Assembly (NCBI GenBank): GCA_000934385.1
Contig: KN880553.1
Coordinates: 1-64,000 of the forward strand
Length of the DNA: 64,000 nt
Direction of reading: 5' to 3'
Source: Cylindrobasidium torrendii FP15055 ss-10
Lineage: Eukaryota > Basidiomycota > Agaricomycetes > Agaricales > Physalacriaceae
A model generated the notes under the pieces. The model saw only the letters and a list, made by a program, of their open reading frames with translations, did not search any database and had not been told where the DNA came from. Made by a program: the position numbers and the translations under genes. Of this stretch, positions 15,318 to 38,729 are shown piece after piece; the first letter of the stretch is position 1; the number at the start of each line of letters is the position of its first letter.

Positions 15318-16998
15318 CTATTTTCCCGAGAAAAGGTTCTCGTAGCGTCGTATGCATGACTGTGGTGCGTAGTCTACGCGTTGGATGAGCACGGGGAACG
15401 AGGAAGACAACGAGAAGGAAGACATACCGAGACCGTCCCCGGCCTTGCACTCGCAATTGAGACCCTCGTAGTCCGCGCCGCTTGGACAGTGCTGGAAGGG
15501 TTCATGGCGGTAACCTATATTGCGGAAGAAATGGAGCTGCTCTTTTGGTGCGAAGAGTGCAGCGGCTATGGAGTGTACTGGCGCGTCTCCCCAACGCTGC
15601 GCAAAGCCGCGTGAGCCCCAAGTTACTGAAGCGCGGTACGCCAGACGCACCTCGTAGTAGAACCCTCCCCGGTTCTCTAAGTAGTCGAAGAATTTCTCAT
15701 ACGCCTCGCTCCGCCAGAAGTTCATGTCTGCGATTTCGAAGTTGCTCCAGACTGCGAGAAGGAATGAGCAAGATGTGCCATGATGCAGCAAAGAGAAAGG
15801 GCGGCGCACAGTGGCAGAGGTTGTACGTCTTTCCTTTGTTGTCGCTGAGGAAGCCTAATGCGTTGTCTTCGTTGACATACTCTGGATGCTTGACCATGAA
15901 CTCTGTATTCTGATTAGGCCCGTCCGCAGGAAAAAGGGGTGGTGCGGATAGACGGACCCTTCACGGTCGACCATAGCGTGGGTATGGTCTTCTCCCATTC
16001 CGTGAAAGCTATCGTGAAGCCTATGCAGGAAAACGATCAGTCTGTGCTCGACACGCGTCGGGGCTGGCGCACCATAGATCTTGTTGTTGTCCCGCAGGTA
16101 GTCGAACGGGTCGAATTTGACATCGCACATTATCCGCACGTTCGGCCTGGGAGGCTGCGTTAGTGGCACATCACTGCGCTCGCCCGAGGGTACGCACTCG
16201 ACACGCCAATAGTAGCGGTACTGCTGGAGAATAGGTTGTTTATAGAAGAACTGCGGCGTACTGTCAGTTGGGCGCGGTCGAGAGTGTGCAGAAATAGACC
16301 TCACCCCCGAGTTGAAGCGACACATGTTGCGGTACGGGACGTTGTCTGCATAGATAATCTTTGCCTGGGCCATCTTCTTCCTTCCTTTGGTGGCCATGAC
16401 CTCGTCTATCCAATTTGGTTGTGACCAGTGCTCGTCAGGAATGAGGCCGAAGGACACATGAGCGGATGTTGCATTCTTGACGCGGCTATGCGAGAGGTTA
16501 ATGGGGGTACTATGTGCGGGGCAAATACGGAAAAAATGGACCTTTTGAACTCCTCCGTGAACTCCACCTCATTCAAGAATGTCCATGGGTAACCATGTTC
16601 GCGATTGAAGCGGTTCTCGACTGTGGCCATGCTGGAGAGGACACCGTCGATTTCGTCGTTCCGCGCAAGCATTACCATGGTGGCATTGGCTGTGCCGATA
16701 CCGACTGGTCGAGGGGCCTCAATCTTTGTAGGGGATTCGTGCGCGTCGGAGGGGTTATGCAGCGCTACATTCTCTGAATCGGGCCGCAGGGCTTCGTCGG
16801 GAACCTCTATCACCACTGAGGGCACCAGGTCCTCTTGAAGAACACGATTTGAGTAGAACCCGCAAGCGAGAGTGTATGTGGTGTAGAGTATGACAGCCTG
16901 AGAAACAGTCCATAGACGCCCCAAACAGTGAAAGAGAAACATACGACGCAAGCCGAGATGAAGCCAGTTCGTTTACGGCCAGAGAGAGAGAGGTACAT
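15318..16998 (-). CDS. GT15 alpha-1,2-mannosyltransferase (Kre2/Mnt1 family)
   Basis: Ten exons on the minus strand: 16998-16945, 16897-16511, 16475-16305, 16250-16198, 16146-16073, 16020-15965, 15909-15810, 15751-15651, 15596-15428 and 15373-15318. They give 406 residues, normal for the family. It is a type II Golgi protein: a short cytosolic tail, a membrane span at about residues 11-34 ([20 protein letters not shown]), a stem, then the GT15 domain. Family landmarks are [68 protein letters not shown] and [16 protein letters not shown], ending in a Cys-containing tail. These enzymes add alpha-1,2-mannose from GDP-mannose to N- and O-glycans of secreted and wall proteins. It is divergently transcribed from the coiled-coil gene at 17481. 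Confidence 0.95.
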
Positions 16999-19504: not shown

Positions 19505-19944
19505 ACACTAAACTACTAAGTAGGTATCAACTTACTTTACTATCTGGGAAATGCGAATTCCTTGTTTTGTTTTTTCTTCTTCGTCAGACTATGGACACTG
19601 GTCAGATCTCAGGCTTGTTCTGGGTGGGGTAGGGATCTGAGCAGTGAGCATGCTGCCGCTGCGCTCCAAGGACGCATGCGCCACACTAGCTTAAATAAAA
19701 TATCCATGCGCTGTTCCTGGGTGAATCGGGCGCAAAACAGAGTGTGTGGTGCCTGGGCGCGACCGGATTCCGGATATCACACAGTGTCATGTGGGGATGG
19801 GGTGTATGATATAAAAGCGGATAGGACATTTGGGCAAGTCGATTGGCCATTACCCCCCATTTTCTGCACCACCACTACTCAAGTTCTACCACCAAACTGT
19901 TTAATTTCTTGACCGACATACCCCCACCAACACCGACAAACATT
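19505..19944. other. Intergenic, promoter of DW peptide gene A
   Basis: Contains the 3' flank of the coiled-coil gene and the promoter of the repeat peptide precursor, with a TATAAAA at 19810. No gene seen. Confidence 0.5.
19810..19816 (+). promoter_or_regulatory. TATA box of DW peptide gene A
   Basis: TATAAAA 135 bp upstream of the ATG at 19945. Confidence 0.55.
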
Positions 19945-20344
19945 ATGCGTCTGACGATTATTGTTGCAACGTTGCTCGCGGCTGTGGTGTCGAGCGCACC
20001 TGTACTTGAACGCCGACAGAGTGTCCCGCCTGATTGGAGGACGACGGAGGTTGATGCTCGGGACGGTGGTGGATCCCCGACGTGGAGGGTTGGGACTGTC
20101 GCTGGGCGACAGACTGCCGACTGGAGGGCCGAGGAGGAGAGGCAGACGGCGGACTGGCGCAGGCAGACAGCTGATTGGAGGACTGAGGGAGAGGAGGAGG
20201 AGGAGGCAAAGAGGCAGACGGCGGACTGGAGAACTACGGGTGAAGAGGAGGAGGCCAAGGAGAAAAGGCAGGGTAAAACCGCGGACTGGGTGCGTTTTTT
20301 TCTTGTTCTTGGCTTCGGGGAGAGCTGACGTCGTGTTGTAGTGA
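19945..20344 (+). CDS. Repeat secreted peptide precursor ('DW' family, gene A)
   Basis: Exon 1 is 19945-20289 (115 codons). A 52-nt intron separates the final Trp codon from the stop, which is exon 2 at 20342-20344. Residues 1-18 are a signal peptide (MRLTIIVATLLAAVVSSA). After LERR the protein is a chain of short units ending in Trp: one QSVPPDW, one GSPTW, four QTADW and a final KTADW. Most units are preceded by Arg or a dibasic pair (RR, KR) and followed by Arg. Acidic spacers (EEEEEAKR, EEEAKEKR) lie between them. This is the layout of a Kex2-processed multi-peptide precursor: cleavage after KR/RR and trimming of C-terminal Arg would release repeated Gln-initiated peptides ending in Asp-Trp. 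No CaaX box is present, so it is not a basidiomycete lipopeptide pheromone. The function is unknown. Confidence 0.85.
20000..20289 (+). repeat. Tandem peptide-coding repeat (QTADWR units)
   Basis: Within gene A the coding sequence repeats a cag-ac(t/a/g)-gc(c/g/t)-ga(c/t)-tgg core, encoding Gln-Thr-Ala-Asp-Trp, at residues 56-60, 67-71, 74-78 and 91-95. Related units sit at 25-31, 43-47 and 111-115. Spacing is irregular, so the array grew by unequal steps, not as a perfect satellite. Confidence 0.85.
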
Positions 20345-22194
20345 TGTGTCTGTGTCTATCTTGTCTTGCTGTGTGTGAAATAACAGGCTGCTGAATATTT
20401 TATTGATTTCATGTGCGTTTATCTCATCCCTCCCTCCTGCTACCCCGTTTGTTGTACATTGGGCTCATACTCGACACGCAGCTCGTGTACCGGAGAACCT
20501 TCGTCTGTCTTTTCCCTCCTGCCCCCTACGGTATCATTATTATCACCCTTCCAAACCCAATGAAACTCCACATTCGAGAATTTGACCTCACATTGGACCT
20601 CGGCTGTTCAACCCGCCGTCCGGGGCGGACTCCATGAGACCCTGCCCTTCCCGCCTTGATACAAGAGTGCTGGTAAAGAATTGTGGTAAGGAACTTGAAG
20701 CGGTGCATGTTCGCTTGTGAGCTGGAAGTTCAACGTTCAACGTCAACGTTCGTGGCTAGGTACGTCCGTCGGTCGGTATCAGGTTGAATACGCGGGCGAG
20801 GGTTTATAGCAATGATACATCTCGACAATAGGGATTTATCTCGCCTCGAAGGCCGCAGAACTCCCTCAAGGACACAGGGCAGGATAATCCGGGCGATATC
20901 TGAGCGAGGACAAACATCTGGGTCTTGTCACAACACAAATCGAGCGAGGCAAGGCCTGCTCTCGACATGTCCGAGGTGTGTGCGCGAGGATGGGTGTAGA
21001 AATGCTGGATGGCGTGTATGTACACATACACTTCGCCATGGTGCTCAGGGCCCTTTGTGTACGAGGATGTTCCCATTTGCCAATCAGCACGGATGGGCAT
21101 AGTGCAGTGTTTCTCATAGTTTCGAGAGTCCTTTCGAGATAACGAGAACGGCACTCCTCCGGATACTTTGACAAAATCAAAATCAAAACACTTCATTCTC
21201 ACTGCGAGCACACCTGCTGATCTTGGGTACTTCTCTCCTCCTCCTCCGATGACTAGTTACAGCATTGACTTCGCCACCAACGCCACTATCTCTTTCTCAT
21301 CATCTCGGGTCTAACATAACGCTACTGTATAGCTGGTAGGGTAGCTCGCTATGCATGTCCGGATTGCCACAATTCTTGAGATAGTTAACTGTGAAGTATG
21401 ACGGGGAGTGGCTGCGCCATCCGTGAGTGCACCTTCCACTGTAACGAGTAGCCGTACTCTTACTTGGCAATAGTCATACCAGCAAAGACGGTCGGTGGTG
21501 TTACTCTAAAGCTCCGTCGAGAAGAAGCATGAGACCAAGGCACATAAACAACCTGAAATCAATATGATATCACGACTTCCAGCCCCGAGGCTTGTTGGAG
21601 ATGAGCGGGCGTTGTCAATGGTCACTTGTTTGTGCGATGGCGCTATATAAGTAGGGCAAGATATTCAACCCAATCGGCAACAAGGATGGCAAGATAGCAA
21701 ATCGCTTCCCGCCTAGAGAGTTGAGTCTGACCGCGCTGGATCCGTTGATAGAGCTCATCAATGGAACCAGCGGCAGTAGATAAACAACTCGCAATTATCT
21801 GCAAGGACGGATCAACGAGTAGAGCTATGGCCGACCGATGAGTTCGGCGGATACTTCACAGTCGAGTAGGTGTCAGTACACAATACGCAAGCTTGTATCG
21901 ACCGACGGTGACATTGCATTTGCGTAGCGCCTTTTGGAACTACAGTGCTAAGTTCTTGACTGCCCCCGGAGGTCTCTCATACGGTGCCACAAAATAAGGC
22001 TTTCATCCGTAATCTCAGAGCATAGCCGCTAAAGTGAGTCCAGGCAGGCATGCACGAATATGGGGGGGAGATGGGCCCTCGATATGCCGCAGGCACAGCG
22101 CCTACGCGCATATAAAGCTTTCGTACTTTCACCCGTCGCCCAGACTGAATCACTGCCACCACACCAGTCTGATACGTCGCATTTGCGTGTCGAA
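20345..22194. other. 1.85 kb without supported gene
   Basis: Between DW genes A and B. Longer open frames (for example on the minus strand near 20804-21211) show no domain, no introns and no family signature. I see no transposase or repeat boundary. Confidence 0.4.
22111..22117 (+). promoter_or_regulatory. TATA box of DW peptide gene B
   Basis: TATAAAG 84 bp upstream of the ATG at 22195, the same distance as in gene D. Confidence 0.55.
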
Positions 22195-22375
22195 ATGTCT
22201 TTCCTGGTACTCTTTGTTGCCTCTCTTATCGCAATCGCTCGTGCAGCACCGGTCGAGGAGCTCAGTCGTGCGCCTGGCGCTAACGATGCACGCTGTGGAG
22301 GGACCGGAGGATGCACCTCAGACTGGGTACGAACATTGTAGAGCGTGCAAACTTGTGCTGAAAAGCCTACAGTGA
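22195..22375 (+). CDS. Small secreted peptide precursor ('DW' family, gene B)
   Basis: Exon 1 22195-22326 encodes 44 residues. A 46-nt intron (22327-22372) follows the last Trp codon, and exon 2 is just the TGA at 22373-22375. Signal peptide MSFLVLFVASLIAIARA, then a short pro-region ending in Arg25, and a tail APGANDARCGGTGGCTSDW. Cleavage after Arg25 would give 19 residues; cleavage after the second Arg would give CGGTGGCTSDW (11 residues), whose two Cys could form a disulfide. It shares with genes A, C and D the signal peptide type, the basic residue at 23-25, the C-terminal Asp-Trp and the isolated stop-codon exon. The function is unknown. Confidence 0.75.
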
Positions 22376-23245
22376 TCAATCTAGTCCCAATGATTGATGA
22401 AGCATTATGGCGACTGTGCCAGCAGCGTATGTACCTGCTCACAATCATGGTCCGCGCTCACACCGTCATGATTTAGATAACGAAGTCCTCATGGGTTTCC
22501 TACCGAGCCCCGTGGTCCCCCAATCATGTATCCCTTCTCGTCTTCTTGACCCTAACAGTAACCCGACGACTGCAACACAAGTATGTAGCGTAAAACGCAG
22601 AACAATGACACGCTCGATTTGGATATGAAAGAACAGTGACTGCACTGTATCCGACCATCGAAGGTGATCGGACAGGACTGATGGGATACACCCGGCGCAT
22701 CAGTCGAACTACCTCGTTCATCGCACCATAAATACACCATTTTGGCAACACGAAAAACAGTCTATCTGTGTGTGCCATACATCCTGATTGTCGAAATCAG
22801 AGATCTGTATCATTAAAAAGAAGCTTTTGGAGAGTCTAGAGCCGTCGGTTTGACGCGAGTGGGTCATGTTCATTATTGAAGCTCCGCGATCGCCTTTGCG
22901 CGGTGGTATTGCGTGCATAGGGAGTATTCACTTGCAACATTTCGTTCTGACTGCTTGTCCATTCATTAACAAGCCTCTCCAGAGTCTAAAGGTTTTGTGT
23001 GTCCTCATGATTATCACGCTTGCAGCTCAAATTCACTAGATAATGCCCGCCGCATGCATGCGTGAACCCGTGCCACCCACTAGGTTGAGTACTTCAAGTT
23101 CCTTGATCTCCTGTGGATCTAGAAATGCCGAAGACGTCTGATAACGTAAGAAGACGTGGCTCTTTCGCTCATTTTCCCTCCAGGCTCAGGCTTAACCTCC
23201 CACCACCACGATCCGTTCGAACTTGCCCAGCCCATCACTAGCACT
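22376..23245. other. Spacer with repeat copy 1
   Basis: Between DW genes B and C. It contains the first copy of a ~35-bp dispersed repeat (22601-22635). No gene seen. Confidence 0.45.
22600..22636. repeat. Dispersed ~35-bp repeat, copy 1
   Basis: aacaatgacacgctcgattt followed by ggatatgaaagaac. It matches copies near 23589 and 24110 with a few substitutions and occurs only between the DW peptide genes. Confidence 0.6.
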
Positions 23246-23406
23246 ATGCGCTTCTTCGTATTTGTCGTTGCCGCTGTTGTCGCACTCGCCCAAGCAGTGC
23301 CGATCCAGAATCGCGCGCCTCAGGGTGGGCCGCCGCCGCCTCCCGACTGGGTGCGTGGTTTACCACCATTGAACACGTCTTATTCACTGATTCTGCTCTT
23401 TAGTGA
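23246..23406 (+). CDS. Small secreted peptide precursor ('DW' family, gene C)
   Basis: Exon 1 23246-23350 encodes 35 residues. A 53-nt intron follows the Trp codon, and exon 2 is the TGA at 23404-23406. Signal peptide MRFFVFVVAAVVALAQA, then VPIQNR, then APQGGPPPPPDW. Cleavage after Arg23 would give a 12-residue Pro-rich peptide with the family's Asp-Trp end. The N-terminus is very close to that of gene D (MRFLVLVVATLVAFAYGAP), which supports recent duplication, while the mature parts differ completely except for the last two residues. No TATA box is obvious. Confidence 0.75.
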
Positions 23407-23587
23407 ATGATTCCAAGAACTTGAGCTCTCGTATGAATGATTTAATGTTGTCTTTTCCCTCTGGCAGTGTGAGTTTTCTAATCGCGCTCCACAAGTTCGA
23501 GTCGTCCTCATTATTGCCATCGCTCCAGATAGCGCGCTAGGCCCCGACGTTTTGATATCTCCACGATTAACATAGCGCGCACGTAAC

Positions 23588-23624
23588 GTAACAATGGCAC
23601 GCCCAATTTGGATATGCAAGAACG
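23588..23624. repeat. Dispersed ~35-bp repeat, copy 2
   Basis: aacaatggcacgcccaattt then ggatatgcaagaac. It lies 183 bp behind the stop of gene C, compared with ~226 bp for copy 1 behind gene B. Confidence 0.6.
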
Positions 23625-24106
23625 ACCTAGGTCCATAATGTGTTACTGAAAGAGGCACGCTGAATAGACATCAGCAGCCGCTCGATTTTTCCCACGCTCG
23701 CGGCATAGAGGCCCGAGTCGTAATCACGGTATCTATGCTCTCATTGGAACACTCTCGTACCCACAAGCTTTTCTGTTCGCATCGGAGTGAACATTGAACG
23801 GAGCCTGAAAGCGATAACAGACGACCAGGTCATTGGACAAGATGAGGCTTATGAACTGTATCGTAGGTGCCGGTCCGTGGTGCTTTATCCGTAGGAACGG
23901 ATGGTCAAAGATGAAGCCTGTGCGCTCAAGCTCGGATCGTCACAGTGGTGTTCACTCGCAAGATTCGAATAGCATTTCTATCTTTTCCCATATAAACCGC
24001 CTTCTCACCGGTAAATGAAGTAGACATATGAAATGATGGGCAATATCTTGATGTTAAAAGAGCCTCGGCTATCCTCGATTCAAAGATTTTTGATGGCGTC
24101 CTGGTG

Positions 24107-24143
24107 AACAATGGCACGCTCGATCTGGAGATAAAAGAACAAG
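24107..24143. repeat. Dispersed ~35-bp repeat, copy 3
   Basis: aacaatggcacgctcgatct then ggagataaaagaac. It lies ~625 bp upstream of the gene D start, comparable with copy 1 (~645 bp upstream of gene C). Confidence 0.6.
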
Positions 24144-24645
24144 ACGGGTCCAGTGATCGGTGCTCCTTGGGTCTCCAAACCAACACACTCTTTGCTTGCA
24201 ATAGCTTGTGCTGCTAAATTATTCGATCCACTTCCATGCTCACTTTTTGGCCCTTCCTTCAGCTTTTGGAACATCTGGCTGCTCAGGCTTATGCCTCAGG
24301 TACAATTCTCGTCGAATGATATGACGAATGGGGTACATTGAGCATTATTGCGATGTTAGAAACAGTGGAATGTCGTACGACTCTGCTCAGCTATTGCTCG
24401 ATTCACCGGGCGAACATCGCGTACACATTACCCTTTGCGCAAAACCCATCAACATGCAGTGTACAAACGCACGAGAAAGGCAGCCGTTTCCTCTTCTCCG
24501 CCGGAGGGATCCTGCCTGCCTTGAAGGGACCTGACTCTCAGGCCCTCAATTCACCGCGTGCATGTGTGAAGTCTCTTCAGTCGCAATCAGACGCAATGAG
24601 AAGCTGAGATGCACCGGAGAAACGAGAATGATAATCCGTGCAGCA

Positions 24646-24653
24646 TATATAAG
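24646..24653 (+). promoter_or_regulatory. TATA box of DW peptide gene D
   Basis: TATATAAG 87 bp upstream of the ATG at 24733. Confidence 0.6.
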
Positions 24654-24732
24654 AGGCCATTTCTGTTCCTGTTCTACCCAGACTCGACTCACACCACTAC
24701 TACATCGCATAGACCGATTTTTTCTATCCACC

Positions 24733-24891
24733 ATGCGCTTCCTAGTACTCGTCGTCGCAACACTCGTCGCATTCGCCTATGGCGCGCCAACAGAGCCAGA
24801 GCAGCGGGAGCCCCACCCTGGCGTTGAAAACGCTGACTGGGTACGTTGCGCTCCCTACTCAACTGATTCTTTCCTGACAGTACGCTAGTAA
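24733..24891 (+). CDS. Small secreted peptide precursor ('DW' family, gene D)
   Basis: Exon 1 24733-24840 encodes 36 residues. By analogy with its three paralogues, an intron 24841-24888 (gtacgt...gctag) follows the Trp codon and the stop is the TAA at 24889-24891. An alternative acceptor at 24880 would add about 18 residues, so the end is a little less certain here.  Signal peptide MRFLVLVVATLVAFAYG, pro-region APTEPEQR, then EPHPGVENADW, an 11-residue candidate mature peptide with the family's Asp-Trp end. It lies 270 bp from the 3' end of a convergent transcription factor gene. Confidence 0.75.
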
Positions 24892-25160
24892 ATTTCCTCT
24901 CCTTCTGGCGATCACCTACCCGGAGGGCCGGCCGTGAGCGTCAGCGCTATAGCGTACGTTGTTCACTGATGCGCCAGGCTCATGCTCACAGACAACGTAG
25001 TCACCAATTCCCAGTGTTGTCCCCATTAGCCACTATCTCCAACCCATGTACACCTTCCTTTTGTATGAAAATGGCATTTAAATTGGGGCATTACATGGTC
25101 TTGTATATCGATGAACCTCCCAGTCTCTAAAGTACATTTCAGTCATCTATCAGTCCCTTC

Positions 25161-27402
25161 TCATTCATAATCTGGAAGAGACAGATACTCCCTCAAAGCC
25201 AACGATACTTGCTCATTGTCCGACGAGATGCTAGATCCACAGCCCGCCTCCTTTATCTCGTCCAAAATCCCCAGCAGATCGTCCCACAGCCGCAGCGTAT
25301 CATTCGTGCCCGCCATAAGATACAGCCTAATCTGCCAGAACCAGCGCGCAACGACGGCCACTCTGTCCGTCGTTAGCTTTCCCAGCGTCGCGCCAGACTG
25401 CGACTGCAACGCCCACAGTGAGACGTGCGCCAGCCAGTACAGTGCCATCACCTTGTCCGCAATGGGCAGGCGCTGCGGACTCGCCGAACTAATGGCCGTC
25501 CAGATGACCATCCAGTTCTGCAGCATCCGATAAAACCGCGAGGCTTCATCCGCCTCCATAGGCGCCGTCTCGCATCTCTGGGCATACTGGGTTATCGTCA
25601 CGTTGATAACGCAATTGATATACGAGATGAGAGTGAGTGCGTTCCGGCAGTTGAAGCGTCCCAGGAGTGGCGCGCTCTCCTCCAGGTCAGCCGTCTCGAG
25701 AAGGTATACGACTTGGAGGAGTGAAACCTCTGGAATCGACGTCGTAGGTGACGAGCAGACGAGCGAGTACCATTCTTGTGCCGAACGCGCCTCCCAGAGA
25801 TCGCGATTGCAAATGAGGGGAACGTCTGTCTCGTGAGCCGCAAGTAGTGGTGGACTGCCCCAGACCACGCTATGGCAGTTGTCGACCTCGAAGGCTAGCG
25901 CGATAACCCTGAACTTAATCAGCTTTGGGTACGAATGCAGTGGTGGATGGTGGCCTACCTTTTGGCACTCTCATAAGTTACCCAGTCCATCCAGACAGCC
26001 TCCACATCTTCAATAACATAGGGCAGAGACCAGGTCTGCACGAAGTCGATCAATCGCGACTCGCGGACCATCTGACTTTGAGTAAGCCAATGTTTGTCGA
26101 AAACACACGAGCCAACGTACCAGGGCAACACTGCCGTGAAGGAATCGAGTGACCTTCCGCACTTCTGGGGATGCATAGAGCTGCACAACCTTCTGAGTCA
26201 TGATCACAGCAGCAGCAAGTGCGATTTGCTGTCGCAAATTGCCCTGAGCCTCAAGCTAAGCGCGTCACATTAAGCCGGGACGATAATCAAAGAACAAAGG
26301 AAACTGACCATTTCCCGCGCGCCAGTGTAATGCATCTCTGTTATAACATCGACAACAAAACGCGAGGCAAACTCGGTGTCTTGGGCGTGGACAGAGCCAC
26401 ACGCCTGCATCGCCCGCCGCGTACTTGGCGGAAAAAAGCCAAGATCGCGCGAGGAATGGTGGAAAAGTGGGACAAGCAGGGACTCGGAAAAGTTGATTTG
26501 GAACAGTCTTTCTATAGGGCGGAAAGGGAGCGTGAGAGACAATTCTTGGAGACGAGTGGCTGTTCAAATACATACCATATTCTGCCTCTATGGAAGGTCG
26601 AGCCAATATCATATTTGGCATGGCGCCCCCGTGCCGCGCCTCGACGCAGGTCCGGTCACTGCTGGTATCGCTGTGCTGCGACTGGGGACTCTGGCTCTGA
26701 TGTCCCCGTTCGATGGGGGATACCACCGCGGAAGTTGGTGTATCACTTGGAGGGGTAATGGCAGTTTCGACTGTGGGGACGTCTTCCGGGGTTGCTGTCC
26801 GTTTCTTCCTGCGAAGCTTGTACACGCAGAGCCTTCCTTGCACTGCACAAGGCCCACACCTGGGTTTCTGCATATCGCAGCCGTCGCTTGCATGGGCACA
26901 TGCCTTTAGGTTTGAATTGAGATTTGATACGGGGCAACGATACCCAAAGGACACACCTCGCATGACACTGGGGGAGGGGGAGGACGAGGGGTGCTTGCAG
27001 AGCTAGTCACGATGAATAAGGGAATGCTATGCAGAATCAGGACGCACCTTCCGTCACAGGTCTTCATATGGCGCTTGAGCACATCTCTCCGAGTAAATCC
27101 AGCCTGGCAGTACTGGAGAAAATGATTAGGGCCTAGGTTGACCCCGTTGCCAGATGGACAGTACCTCGCATGTATGACGCCGGTTCTGGGAGTCTTTTGG
27201 ATGTTAGAAACGAGGGAAGTCCACTTGGGGAGGATGCGGACGGACGTGAGAGCATATGGCGCTGTAGATGGTTCATTCTTGTGTACATGCCCTCGCAGAC
27301 GGGGCATTTTAGGGTTTTTGGGAGGACAGGAATGTTGCCGTTGTGGTTTGTGCGCGATGTGCGGAACACCGAAGCGGCGGGGCGAGGAATCGCCTCTGTC
27401 AT
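25161..27402 (-). CDS. C2H2/Zn2Cys6 transcription factor, paralogue 1
   Basis: Nine minus-strand exons: 27402-27246, 27193-27165, 27112-27048, 26993-26957, 26903-26576, 26511-26309, 26255-26121, 26071-25959 and 25908-25161. They give 604 residues. The N-terminus combines two C2H2-type fingers (CPVC...H49-x3-H53, then CEYC...H77-x3-C81, the last ligand being Cys) with a GAL4-type Zn2Cys6 cluster at residues 95-122 (CEAC, CDMQKPRCGPC, GRLC). A Ser/Thr/Pro-rich linker and a long helical region follow, as in fungal regulators with a fungal_trans-like middle domain. It should be a nuclear DNA-binding regulator; its targets are unknown. A paralogue at 40712-43004 has identical lengths for six of the nine exons. 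It lies tail-to-tail with DW peptide gene D and upstream-adjacent to an MFS permease. Confidence 0.9.
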
Positions 27403-38626: not shown

Positions 38627-38729
38627 TGCCCCCTGCAAGGCTCGAACTTGCGACCTCAGGATCACTCAAGCATTGCTTGATCATACTTTCATATGAGACC
38701 TGCGCTCTAGCCAACTGAGCCAAGGAGGC
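38627..38729 (-). tRNA. Elongator tRNA-Met (CAT) with intron
   Basis: On the minus strand the acceptor GCCTCCT pairs with AGGGGGC, followed by discriminator A at 38627. The D arm (GCTCAGTTGGCTAGAGC), the anticodon loop CTCAT-A and the T arm GCAAGTTCGAGCCTTGC are all present. A 29-nt intron (TGAAAG...GAGTG) interrupts the loop one base 3' of the anticodon, the usual eukaryotic position. The GCC start identifies the elongator form, not the initiator. CCA is not encoded. Confidence 0.93.

Follow-up and report, generated by a model that had tools for sequence, protein, structure and literature searches.

The window analysed here, bases 1–64000 of contig C123 (72,730 bases) of the basidiomycete Cylindrobasidium torrendii (Physalacriaceae, Agaricales; genome 29.3 Mb in 494 contigs), holds a cluster of four genes, A to D, which lie inside 5 kb on the plus strand and encode apparent peptide precursors with different cores. 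Each predicted product starts with about 17 hydrophobic residues, followed by [A/V]P at residues 18–19, an Arg (residues 23–24 in A, 25 in B, 23 in C and 25 in D), a divergent tail and a C-terminal Asp-Trp (DW). Every coding exon closes with GAC TGG, the donor follows directly (GTGCGT in A, GTACGA in B, GTGCGT in C and GTACGT in D), and the introns have the overall form GTRCG...YAG, behind which the stop codon stands. An earlier note on this DNA had described four plus-strand genes (starting at 19945, 22195, 23246 and 24733) with a signal peptide, an Arg at residues 23–25 and a DW end, and in each a Trp codon with the donor directly after it, a short intron and the stop as the first codon beyond; re-reading the sequence reproduced both descriptions, the latter in four of four genes (introns of 46–53 nucleotides, nt), and confirms the common anatomy. 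The signal-peptide-like starts were judged by hydropathy (all four pass, with a 9-residue mean above 2.2 within the first 25 residues) and by eye, the predicted cleavage after residue 17 by eye. The features, all on the plus strand and read from the sequence, are these (aa, amino acids; coordinates of the A cores are from residue numbers, and those of the B–D cores were computed):

19945–20289, plus: gene A, coding exon, 115 aa, repeat precursor MRLTIIVATLLAAVVSS-AP...-QGKTADW (identical database protein)
20017–20037, plus: gene A, candidate core 1, QSVPPDW, between RR and R (cut after Arg)
20110–20124, plus: gene A, candidate core QTADW, copy 1, with R on both sides (cut after Arg)
20143–20157, plus: gene A, candidate core QTADW, copy 2
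20164–20178, plus: gene A, candidate core QTADW, copy 3
20215–20229, plus: gene A, candidate core QTADW, copy 4
20269–20289, plus: gene A, last candidate core, QGKTADW, its end set by the stop codon, not by Arg
20290–20341, plus: gene A, intron, 52 nt, GTGCGT...TAG, branch-like CTGAC
20342–20344, plus: gene A, stop TGA, first codon past the intron
22195–22326, plus: gene B, coding exon, 44 aa, MSFLVLFVASLIAIARAAPVEELSRAPGANDARCGGTGGCTSDW
22294–22326, plus: gene B, candidate core CGGTGGCTSDW, 11 aa with two Cys; 19 aa if R25 is the sole cut
22327–22372, plus: gene B, predicted intron, 46 nt, GTACGA...CAG, without CTRAY
22373–22375, plus: gene B, stop TGA
23246–23350, plus: gene C, coding exon, 35 aa, MRFFVFVVAAVVALAQAVPIQNRAPQGGPPPPPDW
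23315–23350, plus: gene C, candidate core APQGGPPPPPDW, 12 aa; QGGPPPPPDW once AP is removed
23351–23403, plus: gene C, predicted intron, 53 nt, GTGCGT...TAG, branch-like CTGAT
23404–23406, plus: gene C, stop TGA
24733–24840, plus: gene D, coding exon, 36 aa, MRFLVLVVATLVAFAYGAPTEPEQREPHPGVENADW
24808–24840, plus: gene D, candidate core EPHPGVENADW, 11 aa; GVENADW once EP and HP are removed
24841–24888, plus: gene D, predicted intron, 48 nt, GTACGT...TAG, branch-like CTGAT and CTGAC; an upstream CAG at 24880 could serve as acceptor instead
24889–24891, plus: gene D, stop TAA

Cutting A in silico after Arg gives QSVPPDWR, TTEVDAR, DGGGSPTWR, VGTVAGR, four QTADWR, AEEER, two Glu-rich spacers and QGKTADW, that is, six Gln-initial DW cores (QTADW four times, QSVPPDW and QGKTADW) with acidic spacers, the repeated cores by which Kex2-processed repeat proteins (KEPs) are recognized. 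Kex2-type sites in A comprise RR twice and KR twice, some cores are preceded by GR or ER, and the interior also has a Trp end of another kind, SPTW. A 115-aa database protein is identical to the spliced product of A and ends at DW, although the record does not show the evidence behind its gene model; the unspliced frame has 12 more residues. The Arg of B, C and D is followed by APGA, AP and EPHP, respectively, dipeptides of the XA/XP type by sequence and therefore putative Ste13 substrates. Candidate core lengths are as given earlier (11–12 residues in C and D, 11 or 19 in B, repeated 5–7-mers in A), and the cores are neutral to acidic, with side-chain charges from 0 to −3.

This structure is not a product of chance. 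Across both strands of the window, only 4 of 2,340 TGG sites are followed by GTRNG and then, at an intron length of 40–60, by YAG and an immediate TRA, and these are exactly A–D. The same donor-acceptor-stop pattern behind any codon occurs at 20 of 128,000 window positions, so the special feature is its link to TGG. Genome-wide, the pattern GAYTGGGTRNGN{30,55}YAGTRA gave 10 matches (9 forward, 1 reverse) against 2 for a reversed-pattern control, and inspection by eye of the six outside the cluster found no signal-peptide open reading frame in the upstream frame of any. When the Asp requirement was dropped (TGGGTRYGT..YAGTRA), the genome gave 27 matches against 21 in the control, and of the 24 outside the window the upstream sequence was read for the two that also match the stricter pattern; with so little excess, the signature is a mark of the cluster rather than of Trp ends in general.

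Searches for further members of other designs gave little. DWR pairs occur at 19 places in the genome (reversed control 15); A accounts for two, and none of the other 17 lies in a secreted repeat precursor. ADW followed by a stop gave 42 matches (control 40), none with a signal peptide by eye over about 250 nt upstream, a span that cuts longer frames, and ADW followed by Lys and Arg/Ser gave 13 (control 12), none with repeats over 500 nt. DNA similarity searches of the genome with 22000–25000 and 19945–20400 returned self-matches only. A scan of both strands of the whole 72.7-kb contig for a signal-like start, Trp and either a stop or an intron with a stop found the four genes, all with the intron, and three direct-stop candidates, which visual inspection rejected as members. 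The genome-wide search for DW-intron-stop genes proposed in the earlier note therefore recovered the four genes and, with the patterns tried, no further one.

The four genes form a local family of related secreted-precursor-like genes, as had been claimed: B, C and D are alike in 9–12 of 19 N-terminal residues, and the exon structure is identical in all four. A is the least similar: it shares 5–7 of the 19 residues with B–D, and silent sites in these comparisons are saturated or close to it. In the signal regions of B, C and D, the proportion of silent differences (pS, 0.41–0.67) exceeds that of replacement differences (pN, 0.22–0.28), a comparison of 19 codons with few sites. Apart from the signal region and DW, strong divergence of the cores allows no convincing alignment; what has outlasted the rest of the sequence is the DW end, together with the donor and the AG-stop junction. 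Selection on the exact C-terminus is plausible, given that DW is kept in cores whose other residues defy alignment. The earlier claim of common descent with such selection thus holds for descent, to which alone the intron position speaks, and in four genes of one genome, selection on the DW end and an inherited intron place are not separable.

Retention of the intron would continue the DW with Val-Arg, which the donor GTRCG itself encodes, and with 10, 2, 17 and 13 further residues in A, B, C and D, respectively. Retention would therefore move or destroy the DW end, and splicing could gate the product, although an intron before the stop may also be merely inherited. A branch-like CTRAY motif occurs in three of the introns, those of A, C and D.

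Genes for parts of the expected processing machinery are present in the genome, with one match to the Kex2-type P-domain (PF01483) on contig C7 and two matches to the Ste13/dipeptidyl peptidase IV-type family (PF00930), both on C86. The UstYa (DUF3328) family has 7 matches, on C57 (about 65.1–65.7 kb) and C156 (about 31.2–32.0 kb), and OPT-family matches lie on 12 contigs; neither family has a match on C123. One of the OPT-bearing contigs, C126, carries at about 54.2–61.5 kb two sets of OPT-family genes that point the same way, are separated by about 5 kb and resemble a tandem pair.

Taken together, A–D are very probably precursors of secreted peptides with a -DW end. We hypothesize that the four are paralogous and that their products are short, linear and secreted, with a free -Asp-Trp end. 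Signal peptidase would take off about residues 1–17 and leave an [A/V]P start, and a Kex2-type protease would then cleave after Arg, which is a single R in B–D and occurs as RR, KR or lone R in A. A Kex1-type carboxypeptidase would trim the Arg behind each internal DW of A; the last core of A and the cores of B–D have no Arg there to trim, and their DW end is set by the stop codon, which would stand alone behind a small phase-0 intron. Past the Arg, a Ste13-type dipeptidyl peptidase might remove AP and GA in B, AP in C, and EP and HP in D, while N-terminal Gln, in A and in C once trimmed, might be converted to pyroglutamate. The most economical view would be that a single type of receptor or carrier recognizes the DW end common to all, and the likeliest use of the peptides would be to carry alpha-pheromone-like signals from hypha to hypha, DW serving as the shared anchor and the variable part conferring specificity. 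If A–D are such precursors, the chance that they serve in signalling seems about even. The model as a whole, in which A–D are processed in this manner and signalling is the leading, unproven role, we regard as probable.

Several observations weigh against this model. B, C and D each have one core, a single Arg, no dibasic site and no repeats, and with one core each they are by definition not KEPs; in A, Gln directly follows Arg, and no XA/XP dipeptide precedes the Gln cores. An alignment of B–D, compared with a database of 5.8 billion proteins, gave two candidates, neither at E ≤ 10, and A has no relative outside its own genome at the same threshold. Mushrooms are well represented in this database (965 TFIIS relatives at E ≤ 1e-20); for B–D the failure is nevertheless weak evidence, because the search needs shared five-letter words and the sequences are short and fast-changing. 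A Ste2-type receptor (PF02116) had 0 matches at E ≤ 1, in a search that also found none in the control genomes and so had no positive control. Finally, six kep knockouts of Coprinopsis are reported to be without phenotype (Vogt et al., 2022; PMC9769878), which lends no support to an internal signal. The splicing raises doubts of its own: the B intron has CTGAA in place of CTRAY, an earlier CAG acceptor in D (a 40-nt intron) would yield DWYASKFPLLLAITYPEGRP in place of the DW-stop, and other AGs are also present in the introns of A and B. It is conceivable on these grounds, and on the want of a database record for B–D, that the introns are spliced otherwise or that B–D are decaying copies, with other C-termini (DWVR... 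if the intron is retained, DWYASKF... in the case of D) and an incidental DW. However, the AG-stop junction recurs in four of four genes despite different intron sequences, the combination is found at just those 4 of 2,340 TGG sites, the database protein for A stops at DW, and the frames of B–D are intact, with more silent than replacement change in their signal regions, which makes this reading very unlikely.

Other fates of the processed peptides deserve more weight. The same processing could yield peptides directed at other organisms, such as competitors, bacteria, animals or host wood; the strong divergence of the cores among the four genes is in keeping with such biotic interactions, and Vogt et al. 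(PMC9769878), reporting the knockouts without phenotype, suggest a role towards the biotic environment. Against this, the synthetic peptides tested in the same report are described as lacking antibacterial activity, candidate cores with a charge of 0 to −3 are unlike cationic antimicrobial peptides (a class set aside here because the cores are neutral to acidic), and a fixed DW end better fits recognition by one receptor or carrier, so that we consider a biotic role possible but rather unlikely. More doubtful is a mode of action like that of Qsp1 from Cryptococcus neoformans, an 11-residue, Gly/Pro-rich, Trp-ended peptide (NFGAPGGAYPW) that is secreted as a pro-peptide, is matured by Pqp1 and requires Opt1 (PMC7537855, PMC3203159, PMC5959062), in which case single-core Trp-ended peptides would be matured outside the cell, re-imported by an oligopeptide transporter and act inside. 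B, C and D likewise have one core of 11–12 residues from a secreted precursor, C is similarly rich in Gly and Pro, and the genome has OPT-family matches; on the other hand, Qsp1 ends in PW rather than DW, no homology has been demonstrated, no OPT match lies on C123, and any fungus may carry OPT genes for nutrition. Least credible of all is a precursor of dikaritins (ustiloxin type), the sense in which the earlier note's "RiPP-like" (ribosomally synthesized and post-translationally modified peptide) would apply, with cores cyclised by UstYa oxidases. Gene A alone shares the dikaritin layout of a signal peptide and repeated cores separated by Kex2 sites, and UstYa-family genes exist in the genome, but none is linked to the cluster, B–D are unrepeated, the DW cores lack Tyr, and a DUF3328 gene is reported near only 103 of 1680 basidiomycete repeat precursors (Umemura, 2020; PMC7329392); we have therefore set it aside. 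A-type mating pheromones of basidiomycetes carry a C-terminal CaaX and no signal peptide, and this reading too was set aside, given the signal-like start, the DW end and the absence of CaaX in A–D.

Returning to the model of secreted -DW signals, a further speculation would be that mushrooms harbor a hidden class of single-core DW hormones gated by splicing, in which the active end arises only from spliced mRNA with the stop-only exon. This is a long shot; one-core genes of this sort escape both repeat-based surveys and length-limited gene callers.

The surroundings of the cluster were also searched. The window has Pfam matches to a GT15 mannosyltransferase, a Fungal_trans factor and housekeeping genes, based on 30 of 148 stop-to-stop frames of at least 110 aa, and smaller or intron-rich genes may therefore be missed; among the scanned frames no protease, UstYa or OPT gene lies near the cluster. 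Upstream of gene A, minus-strand exons at 15318–16972 match Glyco_transf_15 (alpha-1,2-mannosyltransferase family), and a minus-strand frame at 25164–25970, convergent with gene D and ending 270 nt from it, matches Fungal_trans. A TFIIS frame lies at 801–1721, with a relative in Hymenopellis radicata at 61% (among the best 120 of 965 relatives). An Rfam scan of the window found one tRNA only (38627–38729, minus strand), which at 103 nt probably contains an intron.

Pairwise comparison of the 300 nt upstream of A–D gave a best z of 2.7 among six pairs (B/C), and hence no shared promoter is shown. By eye, TATA-like stretches lie 80–135 nt before the ATG of A (19810–19817), B (22110–22117) and D (24646–24653), with none obvious before C; a scan for bacterial promoters, uninformative for fungal DNA, found nothing. 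Downstream, z-scores of 9.9 and 10.6 are both due to one short repeated element, the sequence downstream of D gave 3.1 and 3.4 against that downstream of B and the C–D gap, and a value of 22.8 is a stretch compared with itself, without meaning. The element is a 46-nt stretch with core ACAATGRCACGCYCRATYTGGA and three plus-strand copies of 70–76% identity, after B (22601–22646), after C (23590–23635) and before D (24107–24152); in a search covering the window and selected loci elsewhere, it had three window matches at up to 3 mismatches, with 0 expected. The stretch might represent a 3' element common to these genes, or what remains of a gene once present between C and D.

Contrary to the earlier statement that no named family shows this combination of features, KEPs with Trp-ended cores, -AADW included, have been described in other Agaricomycetes and their peptides identified by mass spectrometry (Vogt et al., 2022; PMC9769878). 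For example, that report describes the detection of the Lentinula peptide SGTGEASAADW, present seven-fold in its precursor, and of Coprinopsis GPPAPSW, as well as MSGVAADW, SGVAADW and LSGVAADW from Pleurotus with Ste13 motifs, QMRPPSW and QYKAPSW upon expression in Pichia, single-Arg cleavage, pyroglutamate formation on Gln, and many basidiomycete precursors with Trp-ended cores. Trp-ended mushroom peptides are known chemically, and no function is given as established for them there (PMC9769878). A literature search by title or the start of the abstract, with most subscription journals outside its scope, returned nothing on a stop-only exon in such genes or on the function of DW peptides. The published precursors (Lentinula edodes 2599, Pleurotus ostreatus 1091723, Coprinopsis cinerea 490115 and 447393) likewise have a signal peptide, short cores released at Arg and a Trp end; TADW (A) and NADW (D) stand beside AADW, PPDW beside PPSW, Q-initial cores occur as in A, and GPPAPSW is a C-terminal, non-repeated core comparable to the GGPPPPPDW of C. 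Unlike them, B–D are single-core without a dibasic site, and four precursors with different cores lie inside 5 kb. A further possible difference is the intron that directly precedes the stop in A–D.

Alpha-pheromone-like precursors have been described in Basidiomycota, with hormone roles proposed for those with Ste13 sites (Le Marquer, 2019; PMC6339444). The likeness to A–D lies in the secretory route, the Kex2/Kex1 logic and the XA/XP dipeptides after Arg in B–D, whereas the cores differ from alpha-factors, no Ste13 dipeptide precedes the Gln cores of A, and B–D are unrepeated. The pipeline of that survey cuts at KR/RR (or KK), requires at least 4 fragments and at least 3 repeats and drops the C-terminal part (PMC6339444), and B–D are therefore invisible to it. 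Most precursor types are reported to be confined to a single genus (Umemura, 2020; PMC7329392). "Cylindrobasidium" does not occur in the main texts of these two surveys, and A may stand in their supplementary tables.

Gene A, then, is a repeat precursor of the kind described by Vogt et al., and B, C and D are its single-core relatives, which show what published repeat-based searches overlook. With four paralogous precursors that agree in their end and differ in their cores within 5 kb, the cluster would be a handy system for finding the reader of the DW end, and the DW-intron-stop signature offers a specific handle for finding more such genes. While Trp-ended secreted mushroom peptides were known, precursors of this kind with a single core, the exon that holds only the stop codon and the grouping of unlike cores inside 5 kb are new.

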